This document shows, piece after piece, positions 6,043 to 30,312 of a stretch of DNA of 64,000 bases. The stretch lies in NCBI GenBank assembly GCA_012960505.1, contig DUBC01000052.1, positions 62,001 through 126,000 on the forward strand. Direction: 5' to 3'. Source of the stretch: Verrucomicrobiales bacterium. GTDB lineage: Bacteria > Verrucomicrobiota > Verrucomicrobiia > Verrucomicrobiales > DEV007. Below the pieces are notes generated by a model. The model searched no databases, was not told the DNA's origin, and worked only from the letters and a program-made list of their open reading frames with translations. Positions within the stretch are counted from its first letter, which is position 1, and each line of letters opens with the position of its first letter. A program made the translations under genes and the position numbers.

Positions 6043-6120
6043 TTTATTATCTTTCCATTTTTGTCCGGCGCTTATTAAAAGTGTCGATCTGATGCAATGT
6101 AGCCCTAAATAGAGAATATG

Positions 6121-10000: not shown

Positions 10001-12612
10001 CGCGGGAAAATAATCTAAAGAATCTTAAAATTGATATTCCTCATGATACTTTCACTGTAATCACTGGACTCTCAGGTTCAGGCAAGTCGACCTTAGCTTT
10101 TGATGTGCTTTTTGCTGAAGGGCAGCGCAGATTCCTCGACAGCATGTCAGCATATGCACGGCAATTTGTTCAGCAGATGGAAAGGCCGGACGTTGATCAA
10201 GTTTATGGACTGCCACCCACAGTAGCTATCGAACAACGTGTTAGCAGAGGAGGAGGGAAATCAACAGTTTCGACGGTCACAGAAATTTATCATTTTCTTC
10301 GTCTCTTATTTGCAAAGGTTGGAACTCAATATTGCCCAGATTGCGGCGTGTCGGTTGATAAGAAGAGTAAAAATTCAATCATATCGTCAGTAAAAAAAGT
10401 TTTGAAGTTAGGCCCAGCAAAACTCCTATCACCATTAGTAAGAGGAAGAAAAGGGTTCCACACTGACACTGCTGCCTGGGCTCTTAGGCAGGGAATTAGA
10501 ACACTATTTGTTGATGGTAAGTTCATGGAAAGCGAGAGCTTCCAAAAACTTGAACGCTTCAAGGAGCACACGATTGATGGTCTTGTCGCTGAACTGCACG
10601 AAAAATCTAAACATTCTGAAATCACCAAATGTATTGATGACGCACTTCGTTGGGGCCATGGAACAGCACGTATTCTTAGGGAGGACGGTCAGAGCATAGT
10701 ACTTAGCTCGGAGATGTCTTGTCCAGACTGTGGAAATGCATTTGATGAATTGGATCCTCGTCTCTTTTCATATAATAGCCCTCACGGATGGTGCCATGCA
10801 TGTCGTGGATATGGGTACATTGTCCCTTCTCTGGTCGATTACGAAAAGCATGATTCTATTACTGCAGCTGAGTTGGAGGAGGAAAGGCGGCACGGAATCA
10901 GCAAAGAAAAAATAAAAGACATATGTCCAATCTGTGACGGTTCCAGAATTAACACAGTAGCACGAAGCGTTTGGGTCGATCATATAACAATCGATACTCT
11001 CACTAAAGTTTCTGTAACAAATGCAATTGAAATTATTGATGGATTTTCCTTGGAGGGTACCAAAAAGCTTATCGCACGAGATATTCTTGCAGAGATTAAA
11101 CAACGATTATTTTTTCTCCAAAGAGTTGGTCTTGGTTACCTTGGACTGGACCGCAGCGTTACAACGTTAAGTGGTGGAGAGAGTCAGAGAATTCGTCTGG
11201 CTGCTCAGCTAGGCTCGAATCTGCGGGGAGTTCTTTATGTTTTGGATGAACCAACGATAGGGCTTCACCCAAGAGACAATGAGCAACTTCTCAAAACTTT
11301 AATTTCTCTCAGAGACCAGGGGAATAGCCTGATCGTTGTTGAGCACGATGAAAATACAATTAAATGCGCTGATCATTTAATTGATCTGGGCCCAGGCGCT
11401 GGTAAAGAAGGAGGAGAAGTAATATTTCAAGGAAGTCTTAGCTCTAAGAATAAGAAGGGAGAGAAAAATCGGAGAACGGCATCTCTTACACTGAGTGCAA
11501 TTTCAAATCAGATGGAGCATCCCATTTCAGGGAAAAGGCGTAAACTTCCGGCACTATCATCAAAAGAAGGGTGGATTAAAATTAAGAATGCCAATGCAAA
11601 TAACCTGAAGAATCTCGACTGTTCAATCCCATTGAGTCGGCTGACTGTCCTCACTGGCGTTTCAGGAAGCGGTAAGAGTTCATTAATGCGTGGAGTTTTA
11701 AAACCGGCAGTAGATTCGACAATAAAATCAAAAAAAACAAAGAAACGGATTTATAAAACTTGGAAATCTATTACCGGTACGGATCAAATTGTTGCTGCAT
11801 ATGAAGTGGACCAAAGTCCGATTGGAAAAACTAGCCGATCAACGCCCGCAACATACGTGAAGATTTTTGATGAGATTCGCAAACTCTATTCTAATGTCCC
11901 TGAATCTCGCTTGAGAGGATATGATCCAGGCCGGTTTTCCTTTAATACTGAGGGCGGTCGATGTGAAAGTTGCGGAGGCAATGGACGCATAAAATTGGAG
12001 ATGAATTTTTTGCCTACCACGTGGGTAGAATGTGGAGAGTGCCGAGGAGACCGATACAATAGAGCGACGCTTGAAATTTTTTTTAATCGGAAAAACATTG
12101 CTCAAGTCATGCAAATGAGCGTGTCCGAAGCCTGTACATTTTTTGAGACACACCCAAAAATCCATACCACTTTGGCTCTTTTACGTGATACGGGATTAGG
12201 TTATCTTAGCCTCGGTCAGCCAAGTCCAACGCTGAGCGGTGGAGAGGCACAACGCATTAAGCTTGTCGCGGAAATTCGTAAAGGCCAAGGCAGAGCACAC
12301 AATGCAAAGATGAAAGGCGTGACAGGTTCTTGTTCCAATCTTTATTTGATTGAAGAACCAACTATCGGTTTGCATCACAATGATGTGGTGAATCTTATTA
12401 GGGTTTTGCACGCACTTGTTGATGAAGGACATACCGTCATTGTCATAGAACACAATACGAGGATCATGGCCGAAGCAGATTACATTATAGATATTGGCCC
12501 TGAAGCGGGAGAAGGGGGAGGGCAGATAGTGACAAAGGGTCGGCCGGAACAGGTAATTCGATCTAAAACGAGTAGAACAGCTCCTTTTTTGAGAGAAATA
12601 TTAAATAGTTAA
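7036..12612 (+). CDS. uvrA: Double-length excinuclease ABC subunit A with four ABC ATPase modules
   Basis: UvrA recognises DNA damage and loads UvrB in nucleotide excision repair. A usual UvrA has about 940 residues and two ATPase modules; this one has 1858 residues and two complete UvrA halves in tandem. Walker A loops begin at residues 45 (GPSGSGKS), 653 (GVSGSGKS), 1011 (GLSGSGKS) and 1541 (GVSGSGKS). Four signature motifs follow (LSGGEMQR, LSGGESQR, LSGGESQR, LSGGEAQR). Zinc-finger cysteines are present in both halves, for example GRCGRC...CPEC and GRCESC...CGEC. Chlamydial UvrA is known to be similarly double-length, so this is a shared PVC feature. The start is GTG at 7036; an in-frame stop at 7012 excludes a longer form and no other usual start codon lies between. 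No ribosome binding site is visible. Confidence 0.93.
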   Translation: MKKKTPKNAKRSWHRGIISLRKVRQNNLKGFDLDLPLGQLIVVTGPSGSGKSSLAFQTLYAEGQRRYIETFSPYTRQFFERMDKPRVEEVNGIPPSIAIEQGNTVRTTRSTVGTLTGINDYLKVLFSHIGVPHCPECGEEILEDNAESVTQFANMNLAGKAVLVSFGVPVPSQMKPPEFFQLLSAQGFLRIWVWGNLYRTDEPEEYPKKTLPKIVTVVQDRIKISKVAKNIARLNEALETAFLFGKGTIRLIDYESAKDWSFSSGKQCAPCGVILRDPSPGLFSFNSPLGACTQCRGFGRTLGIDLDRALPDKALSIREGVVKAFQGERGSECQTDLLQCAKVRGVDIDLAYEKLSKKNRGWILYGERGDSESNWQQGLWYGVKGFFDWIERKSYKMHVRIFLSRYRSYTTCFACRGTRLQPDALNYKIGNHTLPDIWQLPISDLLNLWNEKKSKLVELSNLDPTALLLWEEVDSRLRYLKRVGLVYLTLDRSARSLSGGEMQRVHLTTCLGASLVNTLFVLDEPSIGLHPKDTDQLINVMNDLRDAGNTVLVVEHEESIIRAADYLVDIGPGRGEDGGDLVYAGPISDYEKSRGKISSLTLDYLSGDKSIPIPSTRRKPKKGNALKVRGAQQNNLKNINLEIPLGLFVCVTGVSGSGKSTLVHDVIYLNLIRERGESTEELPGEVHSIVGHGKLRQVILVDQSPLSRNPRSTPVVYVGAFEHIRKLFAETPEAKSSGHLPGYFSFNSGTGRCGRCWGNGFEKVEMQFLSDLYVKCPECEGKRYGPEVLEFQLVGKSIHEVLNLTIESAIHFFKTIENKKAARVVSDLKPLADVGLGYLKLGQPINTLSGGESQRLKLVGHLLKNKPKKKDKGPAKDLLLFDEPTTGLHFDDIRILLNVFQRLVDDGHSVLVIEHNCEVIKCADHVIDLGPEGGSEGGEIIAVGTPEEIKKEKKSHTGKFLWRDHKPKSLLRAIESKEPPKNIISVRGARENNLKNLKIDIPHDTFTVITGLSGSGKSTLAFDVLFAEGQRRFLDSMSAYARQFVQQMERPDVDQVYGLPPTVAIEQRVSRGGGKSTVSTVTEIYHFLRLLFAKVGTQYCPDCGVSVDKKSKNSIISSVKKVLKLGPAKLLSPLVRGRKGFHTDTAAWALRQGIRTLFVDGKFMESESFQKLERFKEHTIDGLVAELHEKSKHSEITKCIDDALRWGHGTARILREDGQSIVLSSEMSCPDCGNAFDELDPRLFSYNSPHGWCHACRGYGYIVPSLVDYEKHDSITAAELEEERRHGISKEKIKDICPICDGSRINTVARSVWVDHITIDTLTKVSVTNAIEIIDGFSLEGTKKLIARDILAEIKQRLFFLQRVGLGYLGLDRSVTTLSGGESQRIRLAAQLGSNLRGVLYVLDEPTIGLHPRDNEQLLKTLISLRDQGNSLIVVEHDENTIKCADHLIDLGPGAGKEGGEVIFQGSLSSKNKKGEKNRRTASLTLSAISNQMEHPISGKRRKLPALSSKEGWIKIKNANANNLKNLDCSIPLSRLTVLTGVSGSGKSSLMRGVLKPAVDSTIKSKKTKKRIYKTWKSITGTDQIVAAYEVDQSPIGKTSRSTPATYVKIFDEIRKLYSNVPESRLRGYDPGRFSFNTEGGRCESCGGNGRIKLEMNFLPTTWVECGECRGDRYNRATLEIFFNRKNIAQVMQMSVSEACTFFETHPKIHTTLALLRDTGLGYLSLGQPSPTLSGGEAQRIKLVAEIRKGQGRAHNAKMKGVTGSCSNLYLIEEPTIGLHHNDVVNLIRVLHALVDEGHTVIVIEHNTRIMAEADYIIDIGPEAGEGGGQIVTKGRPEQVIRSKTSRTAPFLREILNS

Positions 12613-16340: not shown

Positions 16341-17810
16341 ATGCCACATTATATTTTGATTCTTAGATGCTTAATTTTGGCTTTTCTGGCCGGAAAGCAT
16401 GCAATTGCTAGGCCAAATATTGTGTTTTTGCTGGCCGATGACCAGGCCACGATATCAATGGGTTGCTATGGTAATTCAGATGCCCGGACCCCTAATTTGA
16501 ATTCTCTATCAGAACGTGGAGTGACTTTTGATAATCATTATGACACGACGGCTATCTGCATGGCGAGCAGAGCCACAATTCTTACCGGTAAGTATGAATA
16601 TGAGCATGGCTGCAATTTTACAAAAGGTAAACTTAAGGCCAGCGATTTCGCTCAGAGCTATCCATTATTACTGAGGCGCGCCGGCTACCTTACTGCTTTT
16701 GCTGGCAAGTTCGGGGTAGACTTAGCCGAGGGTCTGCCTGTGAATTCCTTTGATAAGTGGGGAGGAGGAGGCGGTCAGACCAGTTACGTTACGTTAAGGA
16801 ATAAATCGATGAAAGAATATGCAAAAAAATATCCCCACTCCACTCTTTCTTATGGTGCATTTGGTCGCGATTTCATCAAAGAGGCTACGAAGACAGATAA
16901 GCCGTTTTGCCTATCTATCAGTTTCAAGGCTCCTCATATGCCTGATACACCCGATTCAAAATTTAATTCCATCTATAAGGGTAAGACTTTCAAGAGGCCT
17001 TCTAACTTTGGCCGAGAATATGCAAAACATCTAAGCCCTCAAAGTAAGCGGGGTCGACAGTGGGAGAGATGGGACAGTTGGGGATACAGTAGCAGATATG
17101 ATGAAGTAATGCGCAAATATCATCAGCTCGTCCATGGCATTGATCATGCGACAGGAATGATCATAGACGCTCTCCAAGAGAATGGAGCCTTAGACAACAC
17201 GGTAATTATTTATACATCGGACAATGGATTTCTTTGCGGTTCTCATGGTTATGGATCCAAGGTATTGCCTTATGAGGAATCAGTACGTGTTCCCATGATT
17301 ATTGTTGATCCGAGGCATAAATCTAGTGGGCAGGGTATCAGAGTTTCGGCACTAACTGGCAACATTGATATTGCCCCTACGATTCTTGAATTAGCCGGCT
17401 TAAAAGCCGAGTCAGGAATGGAAGGTAAGAGCCTAATGTCGTTACTGGATGCGCCGGGAAAAGAAATTCACAAACAATTATATTTGATGAATTGTTGGGG
17501 ACCGGTAGCGACTCAGAGTTTGGGCGTTGTTACCCGTGATTGGAAATATATCTACTGGTATTATGGTCAAGAAATGAATCCAACCGAGGAGCTATTTGAT
17601 ATGAGAAAAGATAAGTTGGAGCTATTTAATGTGGTTAATGATCCTCAGCAAAAGAAAGCCCTCCAATTAATGCGCGGTCATTATGACAATGGTGTAGCCT
17701 CTATCAAAAAAAAAGGAGCCCCGACACATAAAGTTTATGAAAAACTTTTCGATCGTAAGATTCCCTGGAACCAAAAGGCACCACTAATTAATTCCTTTAA
17801 GGATAAGTAA
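16341..17810 (+). CDS. Sulfatase (S1 family), exported
   Basis: This 489-residue protein has a signal-like N-terminus (about 1-23) followed directly by the sulfatase opening PNIVFLLADDQ, with the metal-binding Asp pair at 33-34. The active-site motif is C-M-A-S-R at residues 73-77. The Cys should be converted to formylglycine; Ala replaces the more common Pro, which is tolerated in some sulfatases. A second metal region is visible as YTSDNGFLCGSHG. The family hydrolyses sulfate esters, usually of glycans. It is the first gene of a three-gene plus-strand run with an amidase (61 bases downstream) and a sialidase-like protein. The substrate cannot be read from the sequence. Confidence 0.88.
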   Translation: MPHYILILRCLILAFLAGKHAIARPNIVFLLADDQATISMGCYGNSDARTPNLNSLSERGVTFDNHYDTTAICMASRATILTGKYEYEHGCNFTKGKLKASDFAQSYPLLLRRAGYLTAFAGKFGVDLAEGLPVNSFDKWGGGGGQTSYVTLRNKSMKEYAKKYPHSTLSYGAFGRDFIKEATKTDKPFCLSISFKAPHMPDTPDSKFNSIYKGKTFKRPSNFGREYAKHLSPQSKRGRQWERWDSWGYSSRYDEVMRKYHQLVHGIDHATGMIIDALQENGALDNTVIIYTSDNGFLCGSHGYGSKVLPYEESVRVPMIIVDPRHKSSGQGIRVSALTGNIDIAPTILELAGLKAESGMEGKSLMSLLDAPGKEIHKQLYLMNCWGPVATQSLGVVTRDWKYIYWYYGQEMNPTEELFDMRKDKLELFNVVNDPQQKKALQLMRGHYDNGVASIKKKGAPTHKVYEKLFDRKIPWNQKAPLINSFKDK

Positions 17811-17871
17811 AATGCTCGACAATAAATTTTGGCAGACACTTAGCTTATCTGTGCATAAAGTAAGTTCTTAA

Positions 17872-18633
17872 ATGCGGAAACTAATCATTCAACCAATTGC
17901 ATTTTTAAGTTCTTTTTTCTATTTGTTTTGCGCTCTTTTGGTTTGTAGTTGCACTACAACGCAAATCGAACAATCGAACTCTAAGAACCAAACAACTTCA
18001 ATAAGAGTCGCGACAGGGTCAGTATTACCAGTTCATCTTTATCGTGAAATCAAGGTAGTGAAAAGGTTCATATCCAAGGGCCGGTATGGCAGAAAATATA
18101 AGAGGACAATGAAGCCTCGTTACATCACAGTTCATTCTACACAGAATTATACTGGGAACGCTTGGGATCATGCGCGGGCACTTGAAAAAGGAAAACTGAG
18201 GGCTCCGAAAAGACGAAATGGAAATCGCATTGGGTATCTGACATGGCACTTCACTGTTCAGGAGGACGTTGTTATACAGCACTTGCCTACTATAGAGCAA
18301 GGTGAACATGCTGATTTCAATGGGCCCGGGAATAACTATTCGGTTGGAATAGAAATGTGCGAACACCGCAGCAATAGCAGGCAAAGAACTTTGGATAGGA
18401 CAGCGAAACTTTGTGCTTCTCTTATGTATCAGTATAAGATTCCTTTAAAAAACGTGGTTCCACATCAGCATTGGCCCCGCAAAGGAACCAAACCAGAACA
18501 CAAAAATTGCCCGCATTATTTAATGACAAATGGACGACCAGGAAAAAAATGGTCTCAATTTTTACGCTCTATTAAACGTCAATATAATCGAATTCAAGTT
18601 CCTCAGGCCGTAGCAATGTCTGGAATTGAATAA
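17872..18633 (+). CDS. N-acetylmuramoyl-L-alanine amidase-like lipoprotein (Amidase_2)
   Basis: The 253-residue product begins with a basic and hydrophobic stretch ending in a lipobox-like VCSC (Cys27), so it is probably lipidated and anchored in the envelope. The rest fits the Amidase_2 (T7 lysozyme/PGRP) fold: the first zinc ligand in ITVHSTQN, the GYLTWHFTVQED strand, YSVGIEMCEH, and the late zinc ligands in PHQHWPRKGTKPEHKNCPH. This family cleaves the bond between MurNAc and L-Ala in peptidoglycan. It lies between a sulfatase and a sialidase-like gene with short spacers (61 and 21 bases), so the three are likely co-transcribed. It may act in cell-wall turnover or on foreign peptidoglycan. 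Confidence 0.85.
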   Translation: MRKLIIQPIAFLSSFFYLFCALLVCSCTTTQIEQSNSKNQTTSIRVATGSVLPVHLYREIKVVKRFISKGRYGRKYKRTMKPRYITVHSTQNYTGNAWDHARALEKGKLRAPKRRNGNRIGYLTWHFTVQEDVVIQHLPTIEQGEHADFNGPGNNYSVGIEMCEHRSNSRQRTLDRTAKLCASLMYQYKIPLKNVVPHQHWPRKGTKPEHKNCPHYLMTNGRPGKKWSQFLRSIKRQYNRIQVPQAVAMSGIE

Positions 18634-18654
18634 TTCAAAGTGCCCTGATTATAT

Positions 18655-19821
18655 ATGCGATTAGTATGGAATATTAACTCACAAGGATTTGTTCTTTTAG
18701 CCAGTATTATTCTAATAATATTAGTCCCATTTGATGGGAAGGCTGAGGATGAACCGCTTTTCCATACATGGGAAGAGCAGATACCGGTCATGGCACATCT
18801 TGCCGTATCTATGAATGGAACAGTTCTCCTCTTCAAAGAACAACGCGATAAGGGCATGATTGAGGTTAAGCGGAGTAAGGATGGAGGAAAGACATGGGGA
18901 GGATTTCTAGTCGTCGGCGAGCGCGTTGATTTGGGTGATGATATGTCTGATGATGGTCGGTACAGAGGTGGTCATGTGGGATGGAGTGAGCTTGCCAATG
19001 TTACTGTTGATGAAACGAGTGGTGACATATTGGTATTTGCCGGTGGTCTCAAGCCTGCTCAGATTCTCTATAGGAGCAAAGATCATGGAAAGACTTGGGC
19101 ACAGGAAAAAATTACAATGAAACCTGATAAGAATGGCTGGCTCGCAACAACGTATTGCTGTGATCCGGGTATTACTATTCGTCATGGTAAGGCAAGGGGC
19201 CGGTTATTGATGCCTGCTCAGGTTTTTGTAGGACCTGTGAATAATGATGGGACTAGAATTTACCTGAATAAGGGTCAGGGCCGTAAATTTTTTGCTAAGA
19301 GGTACAGCAATGCTCTTTACAGTGATGATGGTGGCAGGACATGGATTCCGAGTGAACCTTTCCCCCTTCTCGGTACTTCTGAACCGTCCTTATGTGAATT
19401 GAAAAACGGACACATCTATTATAATGCTAGGACCCATGTTCGTCGGGGAAATAAACAAGTCGGGATCAGTGAGGATTCTGGAAAATCATGGGAAAACGCT
19501 CGCGAAGATGATGAGCTATTCGATGGTCCGCCTGATAATTATGGCTGTAAGGGAGCACTGGTCCGGATCCCAGGCCAGGACACCGATGTTCTTCTTTACA
19601 GCTCACCCGGCAGAAAAGACAAGCGTGAAGATATTACCATAAAGGTAAGTTTTGATGGGGCTAAGAGCTGGCCCATAAGGCGCATGGTCCGAAAAGGACC
19701 TGGTAATTATACGTGGATGGCTGCCGGCCGTCCGGGAACACCGAGTGAAGGGATGATTTATCTGGTGTCGAATAAGGATTGGATGGCCCGCTTTAATCTT
19801 GCGTGGCTACTTGATGATTAG
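18655..19821 (+). CDS. Sialidase/BNR-repeat family secreted protein
   Basis: This 388-residue protein has a signal peptide (about 1-31) and at least four Asp-box (BNR) repeats: SKDGGKTWG, SKDHGKTWA, SDDGGRTWI and SEDSGKSWE. These mark a six-bladed sialidase-like beta-propeller. The family includes exo-alpha-sialidases and many relatives with other or unknown substrates. In PVC bacteria these proteins are abundant and may act on other acidic sugars. It is the last gene of the sulfatase-amidase-sialidase run, 21 bases after the amidase, which suggests a joint role in breaking down complex glycans. Confidence 0.85.
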   Translation: MRLVWNINSQGFVLLASIILIILVPFDGKAEDEPLFHTWEEQIPVMAHLAVSMNGTVLLFKEQRDKGMIEVKRSKDGGKTWGGFLVVGERVDLGDDMSDDGRYRGGHVGWSELANVTVDETSGDILVFAGGLKPAQILYRSKDHGKTWAQEKITMKPDKNGWLATTYCCDPGITIRHGKARGRLLMPAQVFVGPVNNDGTRIYLNKGQGRKFFAKRYSNALYSDDGGRTWIPSEPFPLLGTSEPSLCELKNGHIYYNARTHVRRGNKQVGISEDSGKSWENAREDDELFDGPPDNYGCKGALVRIPGQDTDVLLYSSPGRKDKREDITIKVSFDGAKSWPIRRMVRKGPGNYTWMAAGRPGTPSEGMIYLVSNKDWMARFNLAWLLDD

Positions 19822-20326: not shown

Positions 20327-23300
20327 ATGGGTTCCTTTAATTTTAAGAGATTCAATTATTTATTGATGGCATTAGTTCTGACTTTTCCATCCATAATATT
20401 AGCTGCAGAGGATGCAGCTCTGGATCAATATTTTGTAGCTAACGCTGCCTATAACAGAAAACTATACCCAGTTGCAGTCACGCAGTTTCAAACCTTTCTT
20501 CAAAAGAATGGCAATCATCCAAAAGCGGATCTGGCACGGAGAGGTCTTGCCCTCAGCCAATATGCGTTGAAACAATATGATAAGGCCATGCCTCAATTTG
20601 CTGCACTGTTAGCGAAGCCCAGACTGGACAAGACAATAGACAGGGAACGATTAATCATGCTGCAGGGTCAATGCATGTTATTTTCTTCAAAAAAGGACGA
20701 AGCCAGACAGCTTTTTATTGCTCAGCTTAATAATCTTAAAAACCCTACATTCAAGACCGCGGCACTTGCTGCCATTTGTGATATTTGCTTTGGTAAATCT
20801 GAATGGGACAAAGTTCTTGAATGGACCAAGAAGCTTTCCGCATCTAAACCTGCTCCAGACCAAGCGGCCAGGGCTCTATATCAGCAAGGATATGCTTTTT
20901 ATCAGACAGAAAAAACTTCGGAAGCCACAGTATCTCTTTCAAAGGTAGCTCAATTACAGGCAATACCCGAATGGAAAACCCGAGCAGCTTTTCTTCTAGG
21001 CGAATGTCATACTCTTTTAAAAGAATTTAATAAGGCTGAGCCAGCCTATGCAGCGGCTCTGCCTGGAATGAAAGGGAATGATGCATTGGAATGCCAATAC
21101 CGATTAGGATTTACACGGTTCTTACTTTCTAAATATGAACCTGCGACTTTTGATTTTGAAGCGTACCTTAAAGGCGCAAAGCCTGACGCCGAAGGTAAAC
21201 CGGCTCCGCATGTTGAAGAATCGAAATTCTATATCGCCAGAAGTTTTCTTGAACGCGAAGATTACAATCAAGCCAACCAAAAATTCAGCCAAATTGCCGG
21301 AGCCAAAAGCTTGACCGCGGCAAAAGCCAACTTGTGGTGGGCAAGAGTGTTTTCTCGCCAAAATCAGTTTCAAAGATCTGCACAAATTCTCGTTGATGCG
21401 ATTAAGCGATTCCCGAATTCCCCTGTCATCGATGATATTGAGTTTGACTATGCCAATGCACTTATCAGCTTAAAGAGTCCTGACTGGAAACTGGCCTCTG
21501 ATGCTTTGTCCCACGTCGAAGGGAGAGGCAAGTTTGGACAAATGCCCGAAGTGATAGCCCAACGTTCAACCTGCCTTCATAAGCTCAAGGATTATAACAA
21601 TAGCTTGCGATTAGCGGATAGCTTCATTGCTCGATTCAAAGACCATTCTCTTCTTGGAGATTCCCGTTACATGCGAGCAGAGAACTTGTTCCTTCTCAAT
21701 CGCAGCGATGAGTCAGCTAAGGCGTATACAGATTTTATAAAAGCACATAAGAACCATGCGAGTGTGCCTGCTGCTCAGCTCCGTATAGCGCAGGTCCATC
21801 ATCTGGCAAAGCGTTGGCCGCAGGCCCTTCAAAGTGCCCAACCGCTTCTGGCCAAGAAACCAGAAGGTAAACTCTTTACCCAATTGTCTTTTTTAGTTGG
21901 AGATTGTTTTTTTCGTCAGGATAAGTGGAAAGAGTCAATCAAACCATTTGAGGACTTCATTAATGAAAGGGTTGAGATCAATGACAAAAAACAATATAAA
22001 GTAAGTGCTGGCCCGAACTTGGACACGGCTCTCATCCAGGTAGCAGTCGCTTATGACCGGACAGAAGAAAAGGCCAAGGCACTGGGACACCTCCTCACAC
22101 TCGCAAACCATTATCCTGGAATTACTTCTCACCTTCCGCTTGCCCTTGCAGAGCAGGGTCGGCTCTCTTTCCAGACAGAGGATCTTAAAACAGCAAGAGG
22201 ATCCCTCGAAAGATTTATAAATGAAGACAAAGCCAATAAGGATCCGTTCAAGGCTGGGGCTCCACAACAAAGGCCACGCGTCATGTATTATCTGGGATGG
22301 GTAAATGCGTCAGAAAAAAAGCACGTAGAAGCGGCAAATTATTTTTCGCAGGTTCCCCGTAATCATCCTCTTGCAGCAGATGCTGCACTTCAGCAGGGAA
22401 TAGCTCTCATCAATGCCGAAAATTTTGAGATTGCCTCAAAGCATTTTCCGCAAATGCTAAATCAATTCAGGGAACATGAGAAATTGTCTTTGGTTGTTTA
22501 TTATGCCGGGCTTTCCGCCTCCAAACAGAAAGACTGGAACAATGCGGCAAATCATTTTAAGCGCGTCACTGAAACTTATCCAAAATCTGAATTTGCTGAT
22601 CAGGCATTGTATGAATGGGCCTGGGCAGAGAGAGCCAGGAAAAGAGACAAGGAGGCGGTCCTTCTTTATGAAAAATTACTCGCTACTCACCCGAAGAGTC
22701 AGCTCATTGTGAAAGTGCAAAGTGAATTAGCTGAATTAAATTTAGATAGTGGTGCTCAGGAAAAAGTGATAGCACAGCTGACAACCATACTTAAGGGGAT
22801 GAAGGACGATTCTTTTAAAGAACCGATAAGAATTCAGCTTGCCAGCGCCCATTTTAAAAAAGCAGATTTTGAGATTGCTGCAGGGATGTTCGAAAAACTG
22901 ATTATCGAATACCCAGAATCAAAACTACTCGCGTCGATGCTCTTTCAGGCTGGCGAAGCACGGTTCAAATTAAAAGAGACCGTTACTGCTAGAAATCATT
23001 TCGCGGTCTCGGCTAAGGTGCCCGGAATTGATGCGATACTCGCTGAGACAGTCATTATGCGCTTAGGTGAAACACAGTCTCTCACTGGTCAGAACAATGA
23101 AGCCTCGCAGACCTACAGAAATTTTTTGAACCGGTTCAAAGAAAGTAAATGGATTAGAAATGCTCAGTTCGGACTTGCTTATGCTCTTGAAAATAACAAT
23201 AATCCGAACGGGGCCATATCAGAGTATCAAAAACTTTTGTCAGATGCAAAAATTGTTGACCTCTGGACAGTCAGGAGCCGATTCCAGACCGGTGAATGTT

Positions 23301-23536
23301 TTTTCAATTTGCAAAATTATGAAAAGGCAATTGCTGAATTTGTTAATGTAGAAATTAATTTTAAGAAGTACCCAAGCTGGCAAGCAAAGTCCATACTCGA
23401 GATTGGGCGTGTGCTGTTGGCTCAAGACAAAAAGGAAGAAGCCACACAACGATTCAAAGACGTAATCAATAAATATAGCAAAGAAAAGGCAGCGATTGTT
23501 GCCCGGCAATATCTTGATGAACTTCGTACAAACTGA
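20327..23536 (+). CDS. Large exported TPR-repeat protein, first gene of the Tol/Exb-like operon
   Basis: This 1069-residue protein has a signal peptide (about 1-27, ending near ILAAEDAA) and then consists almost wholly of tetratricopeptide-like repeats, visible as recurring A-x-x-x-Y/F, PKS and AL-YEWAWAE patterns. The repeats resemble the periplasmic helical repeats of CpoB/YbgF and BamD, which act as scaffolds in the envelope. It is followed after 24 bases by an ExbB/TolQ gene and then ExbD/TolR, so it probably sits in the periplasm as an adaptor of this proton-driven complex, like CpoB (YbgF) in the Tol-Pal system but about four times longer. No ribosome binding site is visible before the ATG. 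Confidence 0.85.
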   Translation: MGSFNFKRFNYLLMALVLTFPSIILAAEDAALDQYFVANAAYNRKLYPVAVTQFQTFLQKNGNHPKADLARRGLALSQYALKQYDKAMPQFAALLAKPRLDKTIDRERLIMLQGQCMLFSSKKDEARQLFIAQLNNLKNPTFKTAALAAICDICFGKSEWDKVLEWTKKLSASKPAPDQAARALYQQGYAFYQTEKTSEATVSLSKVAQLQAIPEWKTRAAFLLGECHTLLKEFNKAEPAYAAALPGMKGNDALECQYRLGFTRFLLSKYEPATFDFEAYLKGAKPDAEGKPAPHVEESKFYIARSFLEREDYNQANQKFSQIAGAKSLTAAKANLWWARVFSRQNQFQRSAQILVDAIKRFPNSPVIDDIEFDYANALISLKSPDWKLASDALSHVEGRGKFGQMPEVIAQRSTCLHKLKDYNNSLRLADSFIARFKDHSLLGDSRYMRAENLFLLNRSDESAKAYTDFIKAHKNHASVPAAQLRIAQVHHLAKRWPQALQSAQPLLAKKPEGKLFTQLSFLVGDCFFRQDKWKESIKPFEDFINERVEINDKKQYKVSAGPNLDTALIQVAVAYDRTEEKAKALGHLLTLANHYPGITSHLPLALAEQGRLSFQTEDLKTARGSLERFINEDKANKDPFKAGAPQQRPRVMYYLGWVNASEKKHVEAANYFSQVPRNHPLAADAALQQGIALINAENFEIASKHFPQMLNQFREHEKLSLVVYYAGLSASKQKDWNNAANHFKRVTETYPKSEFADQALYEWAWAERARKRDKEAVLLYEKLLATHPKSQLIVKVQSELAELNLDSGAQEKVIAQLTTILKGMKDDSFKEPIRIQLASAHFKKADFEIAAGMFEKLIIEYPESKLLASMLFQAGEARFKLKETVTARNHFAVSAKVPGIDAILAETVIMRLGETQSLTGQNNEASQTYRNFLNRFKESKWIRNAQFGLAYALENNNNPNGAISEYQKLLSDAKIVDLWTVRSRFQTGECFFNLQNYEKAIAEFVNVEINFKKYPSWQAKSILEIGRVLLAQDKKEEATQRFKDVINKYSKEKAAIVARQYLDELRTN

Positions 23537-23560
23537 TCAAATTTATAATTACTAACTGCA

Positions 23561-24391
23561 ATGTACCTTAATAAAAAACACAATCTAATAAACGTTATTC
23601 GCTGGTCCAACCTGATGATAATTTGTATCCTAGTCTTTATGGCCTTCGACTCATTTGCTTTTGGGGCCGAGGTCGGTGAAGGGGCCGGAGAAGACAAGGA
23701 AACAATGTTGAGCCTTCTCAAAAAGGGTGGCCCTGTCATGTATCCATTAGGGCTTGCATCAATTCTTGCACTTGCGCTGGGGCTGGAACGATTCATATCA
23801 CTTACGAAAGAAAGAGTCCTTCCTGTTGGATTCTTGCAGGGCCTCGGGCAGGCCTGGAACAGTGATTCGACTGGTCAGGCCGCTGAAAAGTATTGTGAAG
23901 ATTCGTCCGGGGCATGCGGACATGTTTTCAAAGCAGGTATTCAATGGCGCAATGAAGGACATCAGGCAGTCAGCAAAGCCTTAGAGGATGCTGGATCCAA
24001 GGAAGCTGAAAAAATGAAACGCAGCTTACGTCCCCTTTCAGTCATAGCAGGTGTTTGTCCGCTCTTGGGCTTACTCGGAACAGTTTACGGCATGATCGAT
24101 GCGTTCCAGAAAACCGCTGACAGTGGTGGTGCTGCAAAGACTGCAGACCTTGCCAATGGCATCTATCAGGCACTAGTGAGTACGGCTGCGGGCTTAACGA
24201 TTGCGATTCCTGTACTTTTATTATTTCAGTGGCTTTCCACCAGAGCTGACAAAGTCATTGACCATATAGATGATGTCGGCACTGAATTTATTGTTACTCA
24301 TGCTTTGGCTAATTCAGCTCCGACGACTGGCCCTGCTGATGCCGGTCAGGATATTAACGATCAAACTAACGTTTCAGAAGGGACTGCATAA
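23561..24391 (+). CDS. MotA/TolQ/ExbB family proton channel protein
   Basis: This 276-residue inner-membrane protein belongs to the ExbB/TolQ family, which uses the proton gradient to drive TonB or TolA. It has the three usual helices: about 56-78 (MYPLGLASILALALGLERF), about 155-180 (VCPLLGLLGTVYGMIDAF) and about 208-230 (ALVSTAAGLTIAIPVLLL). An additional N-terminal hydrophobic segment (about 15-36, ending DSFAFGAE) looks like a signal peptide or extra helix, as in some longer ExbB proteins. Its stop overlaps the start of the ExbD gene by one base (TAATG), a sign of translational coupling and of a fixed subunit ratio. Confidence 0.92.
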   Translation: MYLNKKHNLINVIRWSNLMIICILVFMAFDSFAFGAEVGEGAGEDKETMLSLLKKGGPVMYPLGLASILALALGLERFISLTKERVLPVGFLQGLGQAWNSDSTGQAAEKYCEDSSGACGHVFKAGIQWRNEGHQAVSKALEDAGSKEAEKMKRSLRPLSVIAGVCPLLGLLGTVYGMIDAFQKTADSGGAAKTADLANGIYQALVSTAAGLTIAIPVLLLFQWLSTRADKVIDHIDDVGTEFIVTHALANSAPTTGPADAGQDINDQTNVSEGTA

Positions 24392-24810
24392 TGAACTGCC
24401 GCCAAAAATCTTCTTCTAACGACGGAGAAATTATCAATATTTCCAGCATGCTGGATGTGATGTTCATTTTGATCATCTTTTTCTTAGTTACTACTACTTT
24501 CAAAGAAGAGGAAATTGATCATATGGTGAACCTTCCTGTAGATGCGAAGAATCAGTCATTGACTCAATCGACCGGGAACCTGATCAAGATTAATATTCGT
24601 AAGAGCGGTGCTTATGTATTGATGGGAAAACAGGTCACTGAGGAACAAATTTCCGACTGGATGAAGACCGAAGTTGAAAAGAAACCTGATATCAAGGTAC
24701 TTATACGAAGTGATCAGGATGCGAAACATCTTTATCTCGCAAATGTCATGTCAATTTGTAGACACGTCGGTGTTCCGAGGGCCAACATTGCTGTTAAAAC
24801 CGAACGGTAA
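24391..24810 (+). CDS. ExbD/TolR family biopolymer transport protein
   Basis: The 139-residue product has the ExbD/TolR layout: a short cytoplasmic N-terminus, one transmembrane helix (about 21-38) that begins with the essential proton-carrying Asp (Asp22 in SSMLDVMFILIIFFLV), and a periplasmic domain (about 45-139). It overlaps the ExbB gene by one base and precedes the PD40/toroid protein by 12 bases. With ExbB it should form the proton channel that energises the large proteins encoded downstream. Confidence 0.92.
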   Translation: MNCRQKSSSNDGEIINISSMLDVMFILIIFFLVTTTFKEEEIDHMVNLPVDAKNQSLTQSTGNLIKINIRKSGAYVLMGKQVTEEQISDWMKTEVEKKPDIKVLIRSDQDAKHLYLANVMSICRHVGVPRANIAVKTER

Positions 24811-24822
24811 TCTGTTGTTAAA

Positions 24823-27195
24823 ATGCCCAGTTCAAAACCAACTGATCCTGATCCGGAGGAGACTTCGGGGGTCATCTTGGGTCTAACGAAGAAACGTCGC
24901 TATAAAATATATGCCTGGGGTGCCTTGTTATTGATCCTCAGTGCAATTATTCTGACCTGGTCATATCTAAGACCAGAACGTTGGTACACGTATACGGATC
25001 AGGTAGCATTCGAACAAGTGGCCCAAGACGTTCAGCCTGGTTACGTGGTATGGGATCCTGCCCAGGCGGTCACTGAGGTGATTGGGGCTGAGGGCATGAT
25101 AGGTCAACCGGCAATTTCTTCAGACGGGGCTCGAATGGTTTACTCTGTTGCGAACGAAGAAGATAATTCCAATATATTTCTAAGAATTTGGGATGGCAAT
25201 AATTGGGGAGAACCGCGACCAATGCGGGCCCTGAATAGTCAATTTAATGAAACGACTCCCACGCTCAGCGGTAACGGAGAATTACTTTTTTTTACCAGTG
25301 ATCGTCCCGGAGGTCAGGGAGGTAAGGACATCTGGGTATCAAAGTGGGACGGTGTTGAATATGCATGGCCTTTGCCGCTCACGGCAAGGGTCAATACTCC
25401 TTTTGACGAAACTGATCCGGATCTTTCTCCGGATAATATGACACTTTTCTTTGTATCTAACCGTCCTCACCAAGGCGTTGGGATTAGTGAAAAGGAGGCC
25501 GCAGAGGCAGCAGCAGCTGAGCAGTTAGCAGACGTTTCAGAACAGAAAGTCGATTTCGAAATATATTCCGCAGACATTGCTACTGAAACAGCTTTTGATT
25601 TAATAACAGAACGTCAATTGAGCATGCTTTATTCACTGAGGGAAGGGGCTCTAGCGGATAAAAATGTTATGTCTAAGTTGGGCGGATCAAAGCCCAGTGA
25701 AAGTGCCGTTGAAAAGGCCCTCGCCTATCTTGCTAATTTACAGGAAGAGGATGGAAGATGGGACATCGGCAAATCTGGTGGACAGGCAGGCCATGACGTT
25801 GCGGCAACTTCTTTCAGTTTATTGGCCTTTTATGGAAGAGGTGAACGGCATGATAAGGAGTGCAAATATCAGGCCAAAGTAAAACTTGGATTGGACTGGT
25901 TACTGGGCCAGCAGAATGCCGCTAGCGGAGACTTGCGGGGCAATAGCCCAAAAAACAACGCAATGTACGATCACGGTATCGCGGCTCTTGCATTGGTCGA
26001 AGCTTATGGCGTCACGAAAGATAGCGAATTAAAGCTAAAGGCACAGGCAGCAATTGATTTTATTGTGGAATCCCAACACGAGGAAGGTGGATGGCGATAC
26101 AAGCCAAAGGAGCGTGGTGACCTTTCAGTGACTGGGTGGATGGTCATGGCTTTGGCAAGCGCGAAGATGTCAGGCCTTGCAATTCCTCAAAGTACTTTGG
26201 ACGGGGTAGATAATTTTCTTGAGATAATCAGTGGAGGCAAGGACGGCGGGTCTTACGGGTACACGGACTCACCTGGAAAGGGTAATTCGGGGAAAAATGC
26301 AATGAATGCTGCAGGATTTTTCTGTGCCCAACTAAATGGTGCTTCATCAAATGCTGCAAAGGCCTTCGAGTCGTCTCTCATAATCGACAAGACCGGCTTT
26401 CAAATGAATGACATTTATTACGTATATTATGGAACATTGGCTGCTTATCAGCATCAGGGACCAGTGTGGAGGAAATGGCTGGCAAAAATGCATTCTGAAT
26501 TTCTCAAAACACAAGAACCTGAAGGATCATGGCCGGTAGGAGGGGGGCACGGTGGACAAATGGGTAAGGTCATTGTCACGGCCCTCGTCGCATTGTGCCT
26601 AGAGGCACAATATCGGTACACTCCCCTTTATGGACTTGGGTTTGAACCTGACCCGGAAGGACCAAATCTAAATGTCCTTGATAGCAAATCATTGCCGAAA
26701 GATCCAATTTTTCGCCATGCTAAACATTTGAAGGAGTTCGGTTCTCCGTCTGATGAAATGGCTCCTGTAATCACCGATCATGGTGACTTTGTTTATTTTA
26801 CCTCATCCCGTGAGGGCGGGTTCGGAGGTTCGGACATTTACCGATCACGGATCAGCGGAGAAGAACCATCGGTTCCTGCCAATCTAGGAGAAGAAGTTAA
26901 TAGTAAGTTCAATGAAACGAATCCTGCAGTCCGAATGGCTGGGTTTCATTTACTTTTTAATTCTGACCGGAAGCAGAGCATTTCATCTTTATATGGGACA
27001 AAGAGTAAGAGAGTCATGATGCGTTATGATTATTCCAAGATGCCGTCCATGACCTGGGTAAAAAATAATCTCGTGTTGTTGGGCAGTGCATTAACTCTCT
27101 TTATTCTCTTTATCTTCTTATTTATTCGAGCATTCAAGAGGACCCAAAGTGTTACTGAGGAAAATGATGAGGTAACCCAGGCAAGCGCCAACTAG
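24823..27195 (+). CDS. Membrane protein with PD40 beta-propeller repeats and an inserted alpha/alpha-toroid domain
   Basis: This 790-residue protein has an N-terminal transmembrane helix (about 27-46) and a C-terminal one (about 750-769). Between them are TolB/Pal-type PD40 repeats (FFTSDRPGGQGGKDIW near residue 160, FFVSNRPHQG near 210), then an alpha/alpha-toroid of the prenyltransferase/squalene-oxidase type (about 290-606, with LANLQEEDGRWD, GGWRYKPK, SVTGWMVMAL), and then further PD40 repeats (FTSSREGGFGGSDIY near 655). The toroid therefore interrupts the propeller. The fold is shared by terpene cyclases, prenyltransferases and complement-like thioester domains; the full DXDD motif of squalene-hopene cyclase is absent (ERGDLS, with Asp433 at the central position), so enzyme activity is uncertain. 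The next gene encodes a paralogue. Known PD40 proteins such as TolB bind envelope partners. Confidence 0.85.
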   Translation: MPSSKPTDPDPEETSGVILGLTKKRRYKIYAWGALLLILSAIILTWSYLRPERWYTYTDQVAFEQVAQDVQPGYVVWDPAQAVTEVIGAEGMIGQPAISSDGARMVYSVANEEDNSNIFLRIWDGNNWGEPRPMRALNSQFNETTPTLSGNGELLFFTSDRPGGQGGKDIWVSKWDGVEYAWPLPLTARVNTPFDETDPDLSPDNMTLFFVSNRPHQGVGISEKEAAEAAAAEQLADVSEQKVDFEIYSADIATETAFDLITERQLSMLYSLREGALADKNVMSKLGGSKPSESAVEKALAYLANLQEEDGRWDIGKSGGQAGHDVAATSFSLLAFYGRGERHDKECKYQAKVKLGLDWLLGQQNAASGDLRGNSPKNNAMYDHGIAALALVEAYGVTKDSELKLKAQAAIDFIVESQHEEGGWRYKPKERGDLSVTGWMVMALASAKMSGLAIPQSTLDGVDNFLEIISGGKDGGSYGYTDSPGKGNSGKNAMNAAGFFCAQLNGASSNAAKAFESSLIIDKTGFQMNDIYYVYYGTLAAYQHQGPVWRKWLAKMHSEFLKTQEPEGSWPVGGGHGGQMGKVIVTALVALCLEAQYRYTPLYGLGFEPDPEGPNLNVLDSKSLPKDPIFRHAKHLKEFGSPSDEMAPVITDHGDFVYFTSSREGGFGGSDIYRSRISGEEPSVPANLGEEVNSKFNETNPAVRMAGFHLLFNSDRKQSISSLYGTKSKRVMMRYDYSKMPSMTWVKNNLVLLGSALTLFILFIFLFIRAFKRTQSVTEENDEVTQASAN

Positions 27196-27207
27196 TGGTT
27201 AAAAATA

Positions 27208-30200
27208 ATGAGTTCTGATAAAAAGAAAGCACAAAGGATCAAAGGCAGAAAGGGCCGGTTTCTTTTTGCATTCGTCAGTCTTGTCATTTTTGTAGGGCTC
27301 TCCTCAATGATATGGAAGAAGCTTCAAGCCGATGTCTGGGCATATTTTTCCGATGAAGCGGGTAATACTATCGGGGTCGAAGAAAATAAAGTTCGCAGAG
27401 TCTTATGGCAGGACCCAAAACAAAACCTTTTTAATGAAAGCACGATAATCCCAGATGAAGAAGAGAGCGATAGCATTAATGCTGCAAATTATAGGCTCGA
27501 GGCTGCATTTTCTCCGAACGGGACATCTATGGTCTTTGTGCGCCCAGCGAATGATGACAGTGGCACGGATCTTTTCCTATCAGTCTGGGACGGACGCACA
27601 TGGTCTGTCCCAGAACCCGTTGCAGAACTGAACAGTCTGAACAATGAAAGGGGTCCTGCTTTTTCCAGAGATGGGAACTTCCTTTATTTTTCTTCTGACA
27701 GAGAAGGAGGAAAAGGAGGGTATGATATTTATGTGTCCCGTAACGAAGGAACTAAATGGAGCATTGCTCAGTTATTAAATGAATCCATTAACACAATTCA
27801 GGATGAGCTCGGACCTGCTCCTGCGGAGGACGGGAAAAGGCTATTTTTCTCATCCAACAGGAAAGGGAATAAGAATGATATTTATGTTGCAAGAAAAGTT
27901 ATTGATTCTGAGATTCCCGAAGAGACAGAAAAGGTCCTTCTTTTTCCTGTATTTTCTGAAGTTAAAGCTGTTAACGATCTTAACTCGAAGTCGGAAGATT
28001 TACAGGCGTCACTGACAAGTCAGGGCAATCATATCTTCCTTGCCTCGGACAGAGACCGAGACCAGGAAAAAGGATTCAGCGTTTATCTCAGCCGTGTAGT
28101 GAATGACGAAGAATTTCCACCTGAGAAAATTGACCTTTATATGAAAAAAGGTGACGCAACGGATCCGGCCATACGAATGGAAGGCTTCGATTTGCTTTTC
28201 AGTACGGACCTTGATCTGGAAGATTCTATTGAGAATGATGATTTGAAGCGTTATAGGCTTTACCGTTCCACGACACGAGAAGTTTTTGGATTCACGGACC
28301 TGACATCTTGGGAAAAGTTCAAGGAGCTACTGAGTAAAATCATTTGGTGGATACTGCTAGCGATTGCAGCCCTCATAGGTCTCATTTATCTGCTGGAGCA
28401 TTGGCGTGACATTAGTACCCTTTACCACAAGTGCTTAGCAGGGTCTGCCATTATACATTTACTGGCGCTTTTACTAATGATGGTTTGGCTCATAACTAAG
28501 GAATTTAGTTCTGGGGGAGAAGTGCAAGCTCCTGAAATTGCAATCAGTATTGATGCGTTAGCACAGGAGGAGCTTGCACTTGAAAGTACTCCCGAAGAGG
28601 CTCAGGTCGCTGAAAGTTCTGTCGCTTTGTTGACAGATAAACTTGAAAGCGATTTTAAGATTCCGGTCCTAGAACCACAGAAAAACATTAAAACCAACCC
28701 AATTGTTGCCAGCACCAGTAAAACATCACTCATAACTGATGTCCGGGTCTCGAAAGAGAACGCTGCAACGACTGATGAACCCTTAACGAGTCCCAAAAAC
28801 ATCACTCCGATCCTTGTCACTTTGCCTGAAACGTTACTGCCGGAACCGGAGAGCCCGGAACTTGACGAACGTGATCCGGTTGAAAGTCAAAAGGCTGTAG
28901 AGCCTGCAAATCCATTATCAGATCTTTTCCGTCCTACAGAATTGGTTCCGCAAGTTGAAACAGAAAAAACAAATGAAAAATCTGAACTTACCAACGCGGC
29001 TTCAGAATCGAGTACAGAAACAGATCAAATCGAAGCAGGGGATGCGACTGCAGAAACAAAAGATACTGGAGGAGATTTGATAGTGGCCCACAGAGGTCTT
29101 GAAGCTAATGATCAGGCCCCTCCACTTGATGGTTCCGGAACATTAGCATCGTTGAGTCTAAAATTACCCGGATCGGATCCTGAGACTGACCCGCTCCTTC
29201 CAGGAGAATTAGAGACACCAAAAGAATCAATCGACCCCAATGCTTTCACTAAAATAATGCGGAAGCAACGAGGCAGACCTTCACTTGAGACTATCGAACA
29301 GCTCGGAGGCTCAGACGCCACAGAACGTGCTATTGTCAATGCACTTGATTGGCTTAGCCGCAATCAGGAACCGAACGGCCGGTGGGACACTAAGAAGCAT
29401 GGAGGGAATGGAGCCTATGATACGGCCAGCACGGGACTCGCACTTCTCTGTTATTATGGTTGGGGTGCAAGTCACAACGCAGGTGGTAAGTACCAGAACA
29501 ATATCCGTAAAGGAATTGAGTGGCTCGTTTCCCAGCAAAAAGAGAACGGAGATCTGCGCGGTGGCGGTCGCATGTATTGCCATGGCATTGCAGCTATAGC
29601 ACTTTGTGAAGCTTACGGAGTCAGTAAGGATGAGAAGCTTCGGGGACCTGCCGAAAAAGCTATCAATTTAATTCTAGCAGCACAGAGTCCAACGAAGGGG
29701 GGATGGAGATATGATATTAACCCTGGAGATTCCGACACTTCGGTAACCGGATGGCAGTATATGGCTCTGCACAGCGCTCGAATGGCAGGAATTGAAATAG
29801 AGGAAAAAGTTTTCACTAATGCGCGCAAATGGTTTGATCATGCAGGAGGTGGTAAGCATGGAGGAATGTACGGATACACAGGGCCCGAAAAAAACAAACC
29901 TGCGATGGTTGCAACAGGAATGTTTTGCCGACAGCTGGATCTAGTGGCTCCGACAGAACCTCGTATGGCAGAAAGTGCAGAAATATTAAAAATGCGAAAG
30001 ATCAATGTGCGTAACCCTGATTATTATTATCTCTATTATGGTACGCTCGCTCTTTACCAGCATCAGGGGCCGATCTGGACAGACTGGAACGAACGGATAA
30101 AGGAAACTTTACCACTCTTACAAAAAAAGAACGGTTCAGAAAAAGGGAGCTGGGATAATAGTACAGCCCAGGCCGCTGCTGGAGGCCGTGTCGTTGCAAC

Positions 30201-30312
30201 GACACTCGCGACTCTTAGCCTCGAGGTCTATTACAGACTCTTACCAATGTATGGTTTCCGTAATAAAGATGCCAAAGCACCAGCTAGAAAAACTAAAGGA
30301 ACCAACGGGTAA
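27208..30312 (+). CDS. PD40 propeller / TonB-like helix / acidic linker / alpha/alpha-toroid protein
   Basis: This 1034-residue protein starts like its upstream neighbour: an N-terminal helix (about 16-34), then PD40 repeats (YFSSDREGGKGGYDIY, FFSSNRKGNKNDIY, residues about 80-370), then a helix (about 378-396). It then continues with a further helix (about 409-430) reading SAIIHLLALLLMMVWLI, in which Ser413 and His417 form the SxxxH pattern that in TonB and TolA contacts ExbB/ExbD. An acidic, proline-containing linker of about 260 residues follows, then a toroid domain (about 700-1025) closely related to that of the neighbour (NGRWD, YYLYYGTLALYQHQGPIW). The topology places propeller, linker and toroid outside the inner membrane. 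It is probably the energy-transducing arm of the complex. The toroid has D-S-D-T-S at 841-845. Confidence 0.85.
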   Translation: MSSDKKKAQRIKGRKGRFLFAFVSLVIFVGLSSMIWKKLQADVWAYFSDEAGNTIGVEENKVRRVLWQDPKQNLFNESTIIPDEEESDSINAANYRLEAAFSPNGTSMVFVRPANDDSGTDLFLSVWDGRTWSVPEPVAELNSLNNERGPAFSRDGNFLYFSSDREGGKGGYDIYVSRNEGTKWSIAQLLNESINTIQDELGPAPAEDGKRLFFSSNRKGNKNDIYVARKVIDSEIPEETEKVLLFPVFSEVKAVNDLNSKSEDLQASLTSQGNHIFLASDRDRDQEKGFSVYLSRVVNDEEFPPEKIDLYMKKGDATDPAIRMEGFDLLFSTDLDLEDSIENDDLKRYRLYRSTTREVFGFTDLTSWEKFKELLSKIIWWILLAIAALIGLIYLLEHWRDISTLYHKCLAGSAIIHLLALLLMMVWLITKEFSSGGEVQAPEIAISIDALAQEELALESTPEEAQVAESSVALLTDKLESDFKIPVLEPQKNIKTNPIVASTSKTSLITDVRVSKENAATTDEPLTSPKNITPILVTLPETLLPEPESPELDERDPVESQKAVEPANPLSDLFRPTELVPQVETEKTNEKSELTNAASESSTETDQIEAGDATAETKDTGGDLIVAHRGLEANDQAPPLDGSGTLASLSLKLPGSDPETDPLLPGELETPKESIDPNAFTKIMRKQRGRPSLETIEQLGGSDATERAIVNALDWLSRNQEPNGRWDTKKHGGNGAYDTASTGLALLCYYGWGASHNAGGKYQNNIRKGIEWLVSQQKENGDLRGGGRMYCHGIAAIALCEAYGVSKDEKLRGPAEKAINLILAAQSPTKGGWRYDINPGDSDTSVTGWQYMALHSARMAGIEIEEKVFTNARKWFDHAGGGKHGGMYGYTGPEKNKPAMVATGMFCRQLDLVAPTEPRMAESAEILKMRKINVRNPDYYYLYYGTLALYQHQGPIWTDWNERIKETLPLLQKKNGSEKGSWDNSTAQAAAGGRVVATTLATLSLEVYYRLLPMYGFRNKDAKAPARKTKGTNG

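Follow-up and report, generated by a model that had tools for sequence, protein, structure and literature searches.

A Verrucomicrobiales operon encoding a candidate proton-driven force-transduction machine with a toroid-tipped, TonB/TolA-like arm

The von Willebrand factor A (vWA) force transducers (Williams-Jones et al. 2025, PMC12204202) are the closest published idea to the system reported here, a five-gene operon of a Verrucomicrobiales bacterium that encodes a tetratricopeptide repeat (TPR) protein, an ExbB/ExbD motor pair and two membrane proteins with PD40 propeller repeats and alpha/alpha-toroids. The operon occupies positions 20327-30312 of the forward strand in a window of 64,000 nucleotides, by which we mean the whole stretch of DNA analysed (GCA_012960505.1, contig DUBC01000052.1, positions 62,001 to 126,000), and its genes are named P1 to P5 in order; the host genome measures 4.0 Mb and is 94% complete. 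In the portion of the vWA description considered here the logic is the same: both systems combine a motor helix of the TolA/TonB type with a disordered linker and a C-terminal domain unrelated to that of TolA/TonB, both have a TPR gene and tolQ/tolR-like genes alongside, and both occur in Planctomycetes–Verrucomicrobia–Chlamydiae (PVC) bacteria (PMC12204202). P5 differs in its alpha/alpha-toroid tip, its extra membrane-anchored TolB-like propeller and its two extra helices, and the operon differs in having a single ExbD gene instead of two and in adding P4, a propeller-toroid paralog; toroids are not mentioned in that portion of the description (PMC12204202).

With Tol-Pal the operon shares a TolQ/TolR-type motor, a TolA-like motor helix, a TolB-like propeller and a CpoB-like TPR protein; it differs in its membrane-anchored propellers and toroid tip, and in lacking the TolA C-terminal domain, the TolB N-terminal domain and Pal. 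The TolB N-terminal domain (PF04052) is absent from the host genome, the resemblance being one of propeller fold only, and the two OmpA-domain proteins seen in this 94%-complete genome, of 342 and 600 amino acids (aa), are encoded outside the operon and are not Pal-like in architecture. The TonB-ExbB-ExbD system has the motor type, the SxxxH helix and the disordered linker in common with the operon, which differs from it in having neither a TonB C-terminal domain nor a receptor; the genome also encodes a canonical TonB served by an ExbB/ExbD pair of its own, as well as four TonB-dependent receptors, and the operon motor is therefore not the Ton energiser. A canonical Ton or Tol-Pal system is ruled out by these domain tests. 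The initial annotation had noted that the operon holds no TonB C-terminal domain, outer-membrane receptor or Pal. PD40 repeats of the same sequence type occur in PorE, which is associated with the type IX secretion system (T9SS), and in CHU_0125 OmpA-like proteins; unlike these, P4 and P5 lack an OmpA domain, are anchored in the inner membrane and are linked to a motor. The toroids have the fold of squalene-hopene cyclases and GH76 alpha/alpha toroids and remnants of QW-type repeats, but not the DXDD active site. No prior description of a toroid-tipped ExbB/ExbD transducer was found in the open-access literature, subscription papers and preprints lying outside that search.

The motor and its candidate force transducer

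We consider it likely that the operon encodes a dedicated force-transduction machine driven by the proton-motive force, with P5 as its toroid-tipped, TonB/TolA-like arm. The initial annotation had described five adjacent forward-strand genes with gaps of 12-24 bases and one TAATG overlap, encoding an exported TPR protein, an ExbB/ExbD pair and two PD40/toroid membrane proteins. The coordinates, the order TPR–ExbB–ExbD–P4–P5 and the gaps (24, -1, 12 and 12 bases, the negative value being the overlap) are all confirmed, and the protein assignments were borne out by Pfam (TPR, E 9e-47; MotA_ExbB, 1e-29; ExbD, 2e-25; PD40 in P4 and P5, 1e-22 and 1e-19), by AlphaFold2 models, in which the helical toroids span residues 258-603 of P4 and 693-1014 of P5, and by Foldseek. 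Weak Pfam SQHop_cyclase matches cover the toroids of both P4 and P5. Promoter and terminator scans gave no signal above shuffles.

By hydropathy P5 has three transmembrane helices (TM1 at residues 18-36; TM2 and TM3 in Table 1), and its domains run from TM1 through a TolB-like propeller (best Foldseek matches TolB, E 6e-9), TM2 and an SxxxH-bearing TM3 to a motor-box-like segment, a disordered linker and the toroid. TM3 (AGSAIIHLLALLLMMVWLI) holds a Ser and a His four residues apart, as in TonB and TolA. S413 and H417 are kept in all 58 homologs covering TM3, at 30-96% identity and including a Kiritimatiellia metagenome-assembled genome (MAG), and this invariant pair is a specific, predicted membrane link of P5 to ExbB/ExbD. 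The motif was not found in TM1 or TM2 of P5 or in either helix of P4 in any aligned homolog; P4 and P5, which had been treated as equivalent in the initial annotation, are thus not so, the motor motif being present in P5 alone of the two. In a sample of 198 TM-like segments of the host genome, SxxxH occurs in four distinct helices, those of P5, of a P5 paralog and of two small TonB-like proteins next to ExbB/ExbD; confined in this way to transducer-like helices, it is therefore a specific marker rather than a product of chance.

TM3 is followed by a strongly conserved stretch, E-I-x-I-x-A-L-x-Q-E-E-L-A-x-E-S (residues 443-460). In the portion of the vWA work considered here, the motor box of TolA and TonB is placed just outside the membrane (PMC12204202), and by analogy the P5 segment is a candidate motor box; the AlphaFold2 model draws it as a helix (448-459), whereas the motor box is a strand next to the membrane. 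The linker beyond, about 250 residues in P5, is 253-263 residues long in the majority of five-gene homologs and reaches 672 in other homologs. A positively charged N-terminus and three helices lead us to infer a periplasmic location for the propeller, linker and toroid. Pfam finds no TonB_C domain in P5, the sole match in the genome lying elsewhere, and no vWA domain, the modelled C-terminal domain being the toroid. The succession of SxxxH helix, conserved segment, disordered linker and toroid therefore leads us to read P5 as a TonB/TolA-like force transducer in which an alpha/alpha-toroid has replaced the usual C-terminal domain and a TolB-like propeller has been set in front.

The residues of the motor subunits are consistent with a working proton motor of the 5:2 type: T174 and T208 of the ExbB protein P2 are invariant (31/31 homologs), as is the membrane Asp22 of the ExbD protein P3 (32/32). 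Homology of P2 and P3 to TolQ and TolR is present, with NCBIfam matches below the equivalog cut-offs, and the ExbB tree tracks transducer type, splitting toroid from short-tip systems (described below) cleanly and with one change each. P1 gives partial matches to YbgF/CpoB, BamD and SprE/PorW models.

Foldseek places the modelled toroids of P4 and P5 among (alpha/alpha)6-type proteins, with GH76 mannanases, AprG and terpene cyclases as best matches (TM-score about 0.6 on the target), matches that at the level of the models point to a generic alpha/alpha toroid. Conserved in toroids of all kinds are Q720, Y790, E801, Y803, W833, Y835, D843, S845, Y940, Y943, Y944 and R1010, and the catalytic DXDD motif of the cyclases is found in 0 of 163 toroid domains; because this residue set is conserved without DXDD, terpene chemistry is unlikely and the binding of a ligand plausible.

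Gene order, the P4-P5 fusion and distribution

A scan of the GTDB genome collection returned 64 loci, 28 of which carry all five genes in the same order (L063-L066, L068-L073, L075-L077, L080, L084, L086, L087, L089, L092-L095, L097, L107, L108, L111, L122 and L125), while most of the others are cut by contig ends or represent a two-gene form. The genes are thus not neighbours by chance, the linkage assumed in the initial annotation withstood a search run as its refutation test, and a locus with fused genes (L123) also retains the motor. The nearest named relative at the locus is a Verrucomicrobiales MAG (L063; 88% identity over P5). Flanking genes are common only to close relatives, outside of which the five-gene form has no conserved neighbours that could serve as a functional clue; since the flanks change while the gene order holds, the unit consists of these five genes. 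In less closely related genomes (L156, L157 and L160) TPR-ExbB-ExbD-P5 occurs without P4, and this four-gene form may be the older one. The module of propeller and motor helix was found in 14 of 75 family genomes, in 20 of the 289 sampled genomes of the order and in 12 of the 388 sampled genomes of the phylum, and this patchy distribution argues that the system is probably accessory rather than a housekeeping Tol-Pal.

P4 comprises TM1 (29-47), PD40 repeats, an inserted toroid, further PD40 repeats and a C-terminal helix (750-768), so that its toroid sits within the propeller repeats and that of P5 forms the C-terminal tip. Both the TM1-propeller part and the toroid of the two proteins are related (hhalign probability 100%), and by sequence P4 is a paralog of P5 without the motor motif. 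In L123, from a MAG that bears the doubtful label Akkermansia muciniphila, P4 and P5 form one protein of 1879 aa with two toroids, encoded between the TPR gene and ExbB-ExbD. The fusion lacks exactly the C-terminal helix of P4 and TM1 of P5 and so keeps the topology, providing strong independent evidence for a predicted cooperation of P4 and P5 on the same side of the membrane and with the motor.

The host genome has a second locus (L009), in which a TPR gene accompanies the P5 paralog without motor genes. At least 13 loci show this two-gene form, frequently within sulfatase/PSD1/DUF1501 islands (the names PSD1 and DUF1501 come from inspection of the sequences rather than from Pfam), and in several genera the paralog locus lies in sulfatase-rich islands. 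This locus, the SxxxH helix and linker of P5 and the differing positions of the two toroids are features beyond those of the initial annotation.

Proposed mechanism and competing explanations

From the gene linkage, motif conservation, domain order and fusion observed above we propose a mechanism in terms of docking, movement, force and topology. P5 would dock on the side of the ExbB pentamer via S413/H417, as TonB and TolA do, and its conserved segment after TM3 would act on ExbD in the manner of a motor box. Driven by the flow of protons, P5 would extend or exert a pull by way of its flexible linker, and the C-terminal toroid would deliver the force in place of the beta-strand-adding TonB/TolA domain. 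P5 would hold its TolB-like propeller at the inner membrane, P4 would be a fixed propeller-plus-toroid partner and P1 a periplasmic scaffold, while the toroid probably takes hold of a ligand in the periplasm or the outer membrane. We tentatively favour a glycan or a component of glycan uptake as that ligand because the toroid fold resembles that of sugar enzymes, the paralog lies in sulfatase-rich surroundings and the system is distributed like an accessory one, each of them a weak line.

Several observations weigh against this account. Only the Ser-His half of the SHLS motif is present in P5: the Leu and Ser are absent, and the alignment has mostly M/G and L at H+7 and H+11, which, by the spacing in E. 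coli TonB, are their expected positions. Overall confidence in the P5 model is low (predicted TM-score 0.41), its individual domains excepted, L118 has genes 2-5 and room upstream without a detectable TPR gene, the operon contains no gene for an outer-membrane partner, and the TPR and P5-paralog locus, having no motor genes, must borrow a motor.

Within the transducer reading, the function that we favour, weakly supported as it is, is the capture or import of polysaccharides, which we hold to be possible but doubtful: toroid and propellers would bind long glycans, and the motor would ratchet the chains or open a channel in the outer membrane, which might underlie selfish glycan uptake by Verrucomicrobiota. 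It draws on the GH76 mannanases and other sugar-acting alpha/alpha proteins among the best fold matches, on the universally conserved aromatic and polar residues of the toroids, on the islands that surround the paralog, on the patchy, accessory distribution and on the selfish uptake reported for Verrucomicrobiota without a complete machine (PMC13174399); yet the fold similarity is generic, terpene cyclases and complement scoring equally, the five-gene form lacks conserved flanks and no outer-membrane porin is linked. The main rival is outer-membrane maintenance: a divergent Tol-Pal would stabilise the outer membrane or drive its constriction, P5 taking the part of a fused TolA and TolB and P1 that of CpoB. 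The TolQ/TolR-like motor, the TolB-like fold of the propeller, the YbgF/CpoB matches of the long TPR protein and the lack of a TolB_N domain anywhere in the genome speak for it, but we judge it unlikely in view of the lack of Pal in the operon, a presence too patchy for a housekeeping system, the replaced TolA/TonB C-terminal domain and the second TPR and P5 copy in sulfatase/PSD1/DUF1501 islands. Of the Tol-Pal-like complex proposed in the initial annotation, the proton-motor-driven, Tol-like character and the TolB-like propellers consequently stand and membership of Tol-Pal does not; the toroid, envisaged there as the moving or binding end, is kept as the working end, which may bind or move.

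A motor for gliding motility or protein secretion, comparable with GldLM/T9SS or Agl-Glt, appears improbable: the propellers cross-match PorE and the TPR protein PorW/SprE in NCBIfam, all below the curated cut-offs, but the motor is of the ExbB/ExbD type and no GldL/GldM-type, SprA or PorV genes were seen in the operon or its flanks. More improbable still is a reading of the toroids as catalytically active terpene cyclases or prenyltransferases with an incidental motor linkage, for although Pfam gives the weak squalene-hopene cyclase matches, an active cyclase is rejected for lack of DXDD, the domain ends a disordered linker and is predicted to be periplasmic, and the motor linkage is conserved. 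The Akkermansia MUL loci (Davey et al. 2023) were dropped as a match: according to a later paper MUL2 is pilus-like and MUL1 Sus-like, and genomes of genus g19, guessed to be Akkermansia, contain no match to the module.

Taken furthest, the transducer reading would describe a new machine class in which the toroid of a TonB-like arm and a fixed propeller-toroid partner grip and move long polysaccharides or an outer-membrane glycan channel, a conjecture that we rate as rather unlikely. If true, it would fill the place of the engine still missing from accounts of selfish glycan uptake by Verrucomicrobiota; to our knowledge, the glycan capture machinery of diderm PVC bacteria is largely unidentified. 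We know of few kinds of effector tip on ExbB/ExbD-type motors, namely the C-terminal domain of TonB and TolA and the vWA domain proposed in 2025, and a toroid tip and a TolB-like propeller in one chain, together with a natural fusion to the partner, widen the scope of such motors. H417, D22 and the P4-P5 pairing offer a concrete handle on mechanical work at the diderm PVC envelope.

Related transducers and neighbouring genes

In seven loci (L158, L159, L161-L164 and L166) and a fragment (L165), ExbB-ExbD is followed by the propeller-TM-TM module ending in a short, non-toroid C-terminal domain; this branch keeps the motif His (with Ser or Ala four residues before) and the juxtamembrane segment. 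Because these distant relatives keep the unit of propeller, SxxxH and motor but end in a different domain, the effector tip would be exchangeable, and the operon, if correctly read, would belong to a larger group of ExbB/ExbD transducers whose tips (toroid, vWA, OmpA or a short C-terminal domain) are interchangeable. The short-tip proteins have about 740-806 aa and an undescribed domain with the pattern ..IPxDSExEVPExY, and in L163 and L164 a MORN-repeat gene lies downstream.

Single-helix toroid proteins stand beside ExbB-ExbD-ExbD in L046, L136 and L142, and beside ExbD only in L127, in other Verrucomicrobiota; they carry a His in their single helix and represent a second association of toroid and motor, while most of the sampled single-helix toroid genes have no motor neighbour. 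The host genome has further proteins of this general kind. One of 342 aa (L167:802-1830, G000:C18) combines a TonB-like SxxxH helix with a C-terminal OmpA peptidoglycan-binding domain and may represent a further type of tip or anchor for a transducer, and two SxxxH-helix proteins without a Pfam domain (L171:4455-5210 and L173:6839-8353), directly beside ExbB-ExbD, are predicted to be further dedicated transducers. L172:2683-7593 holds an ExbB-ExbD-ExbD-TPR cluster like those reported alongside vWA transducers. In L010, L013 and L014 there are toroid proteins that have a signal peptide and no motor helix, in clusters that resemble MoxR/DUF58/BatA operons, the neighbours being assigned from reading only.

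Table 1 Features of the operon, in window coordinates (pLDDT, predicted local distance difference test)
Feature	Position	Strand	Basis
P1, exported TPR-repeat protein, 1069 aa	20327..23536	+	N-terminal signal sequence; Pfam
P2, ExbB/TolQ-type proton channel subunit, 276 aa	23561..24391	+	Pfam; conserved residues
P3, ExbD/TolR subunit, 139 aa	24391..24810	+	Pfam; conserved residue
P4, inner-membrane protein without motor motif, 790 aa	24823..27195	+	Pfam, hydropathy, model
P4 inserted toroid, residues about 258-605	25594..26637	+	AlphaFold2 model, Foldseek
P5, putative TonB/TolA-like force transducer, 1034 aa	27208..30312	+	Pfam, hydropathy, motif, model, Foldseek
P5 TolB-like PD40 propeller, predicted periplasmic, residues about 95-335	27490..28212	+	Pfam, model, Foldseek
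P5 TM2, residues 378-396	28339..28395	+	Hydropathy
P5 TM3, residues 411-429, predicted motor-binding S413xxxH417	28438..28494	+	58/58 homologs
P5 P/E/T-rich linker, predicted disordered, residues about 436-690	28513..29277	+	AlphaFold2 pLDDT 25-50
P5 juxtamembrane segment (AISIDALAQEELALESTPEE region), candidate motor box, residues 445-465	28540..28602	+	Conservation; function by analogy (PMC12204202)
P5 C-terminal alpha/alpha-toroid, putative transducer tip, residues about 693-1018	29284..30261	+	Pfam, model, Foldseek

Just upstream of the operon and on the same strand, the window encodes a sulfatase-like protein (assigned from reading), an Amidase_2 N-acetylmuramoyl-L-alanine amidase and a BNR/sialidase-like gene (16341-19821), a context kept in a close relative (G008) and not in other genera. 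Further away lie an open reading frame of 1858 aa with two tandem sets of UvrA domains, that is, a fused double UvrA (7036-12612), and, near MlaD/ABC genes at 5059-6894, an Aas/LplT-like fusion of 1143 aa that joins a major facilitator superfamily transporter to acyltransferase and AMP-binding domains (631-4062).

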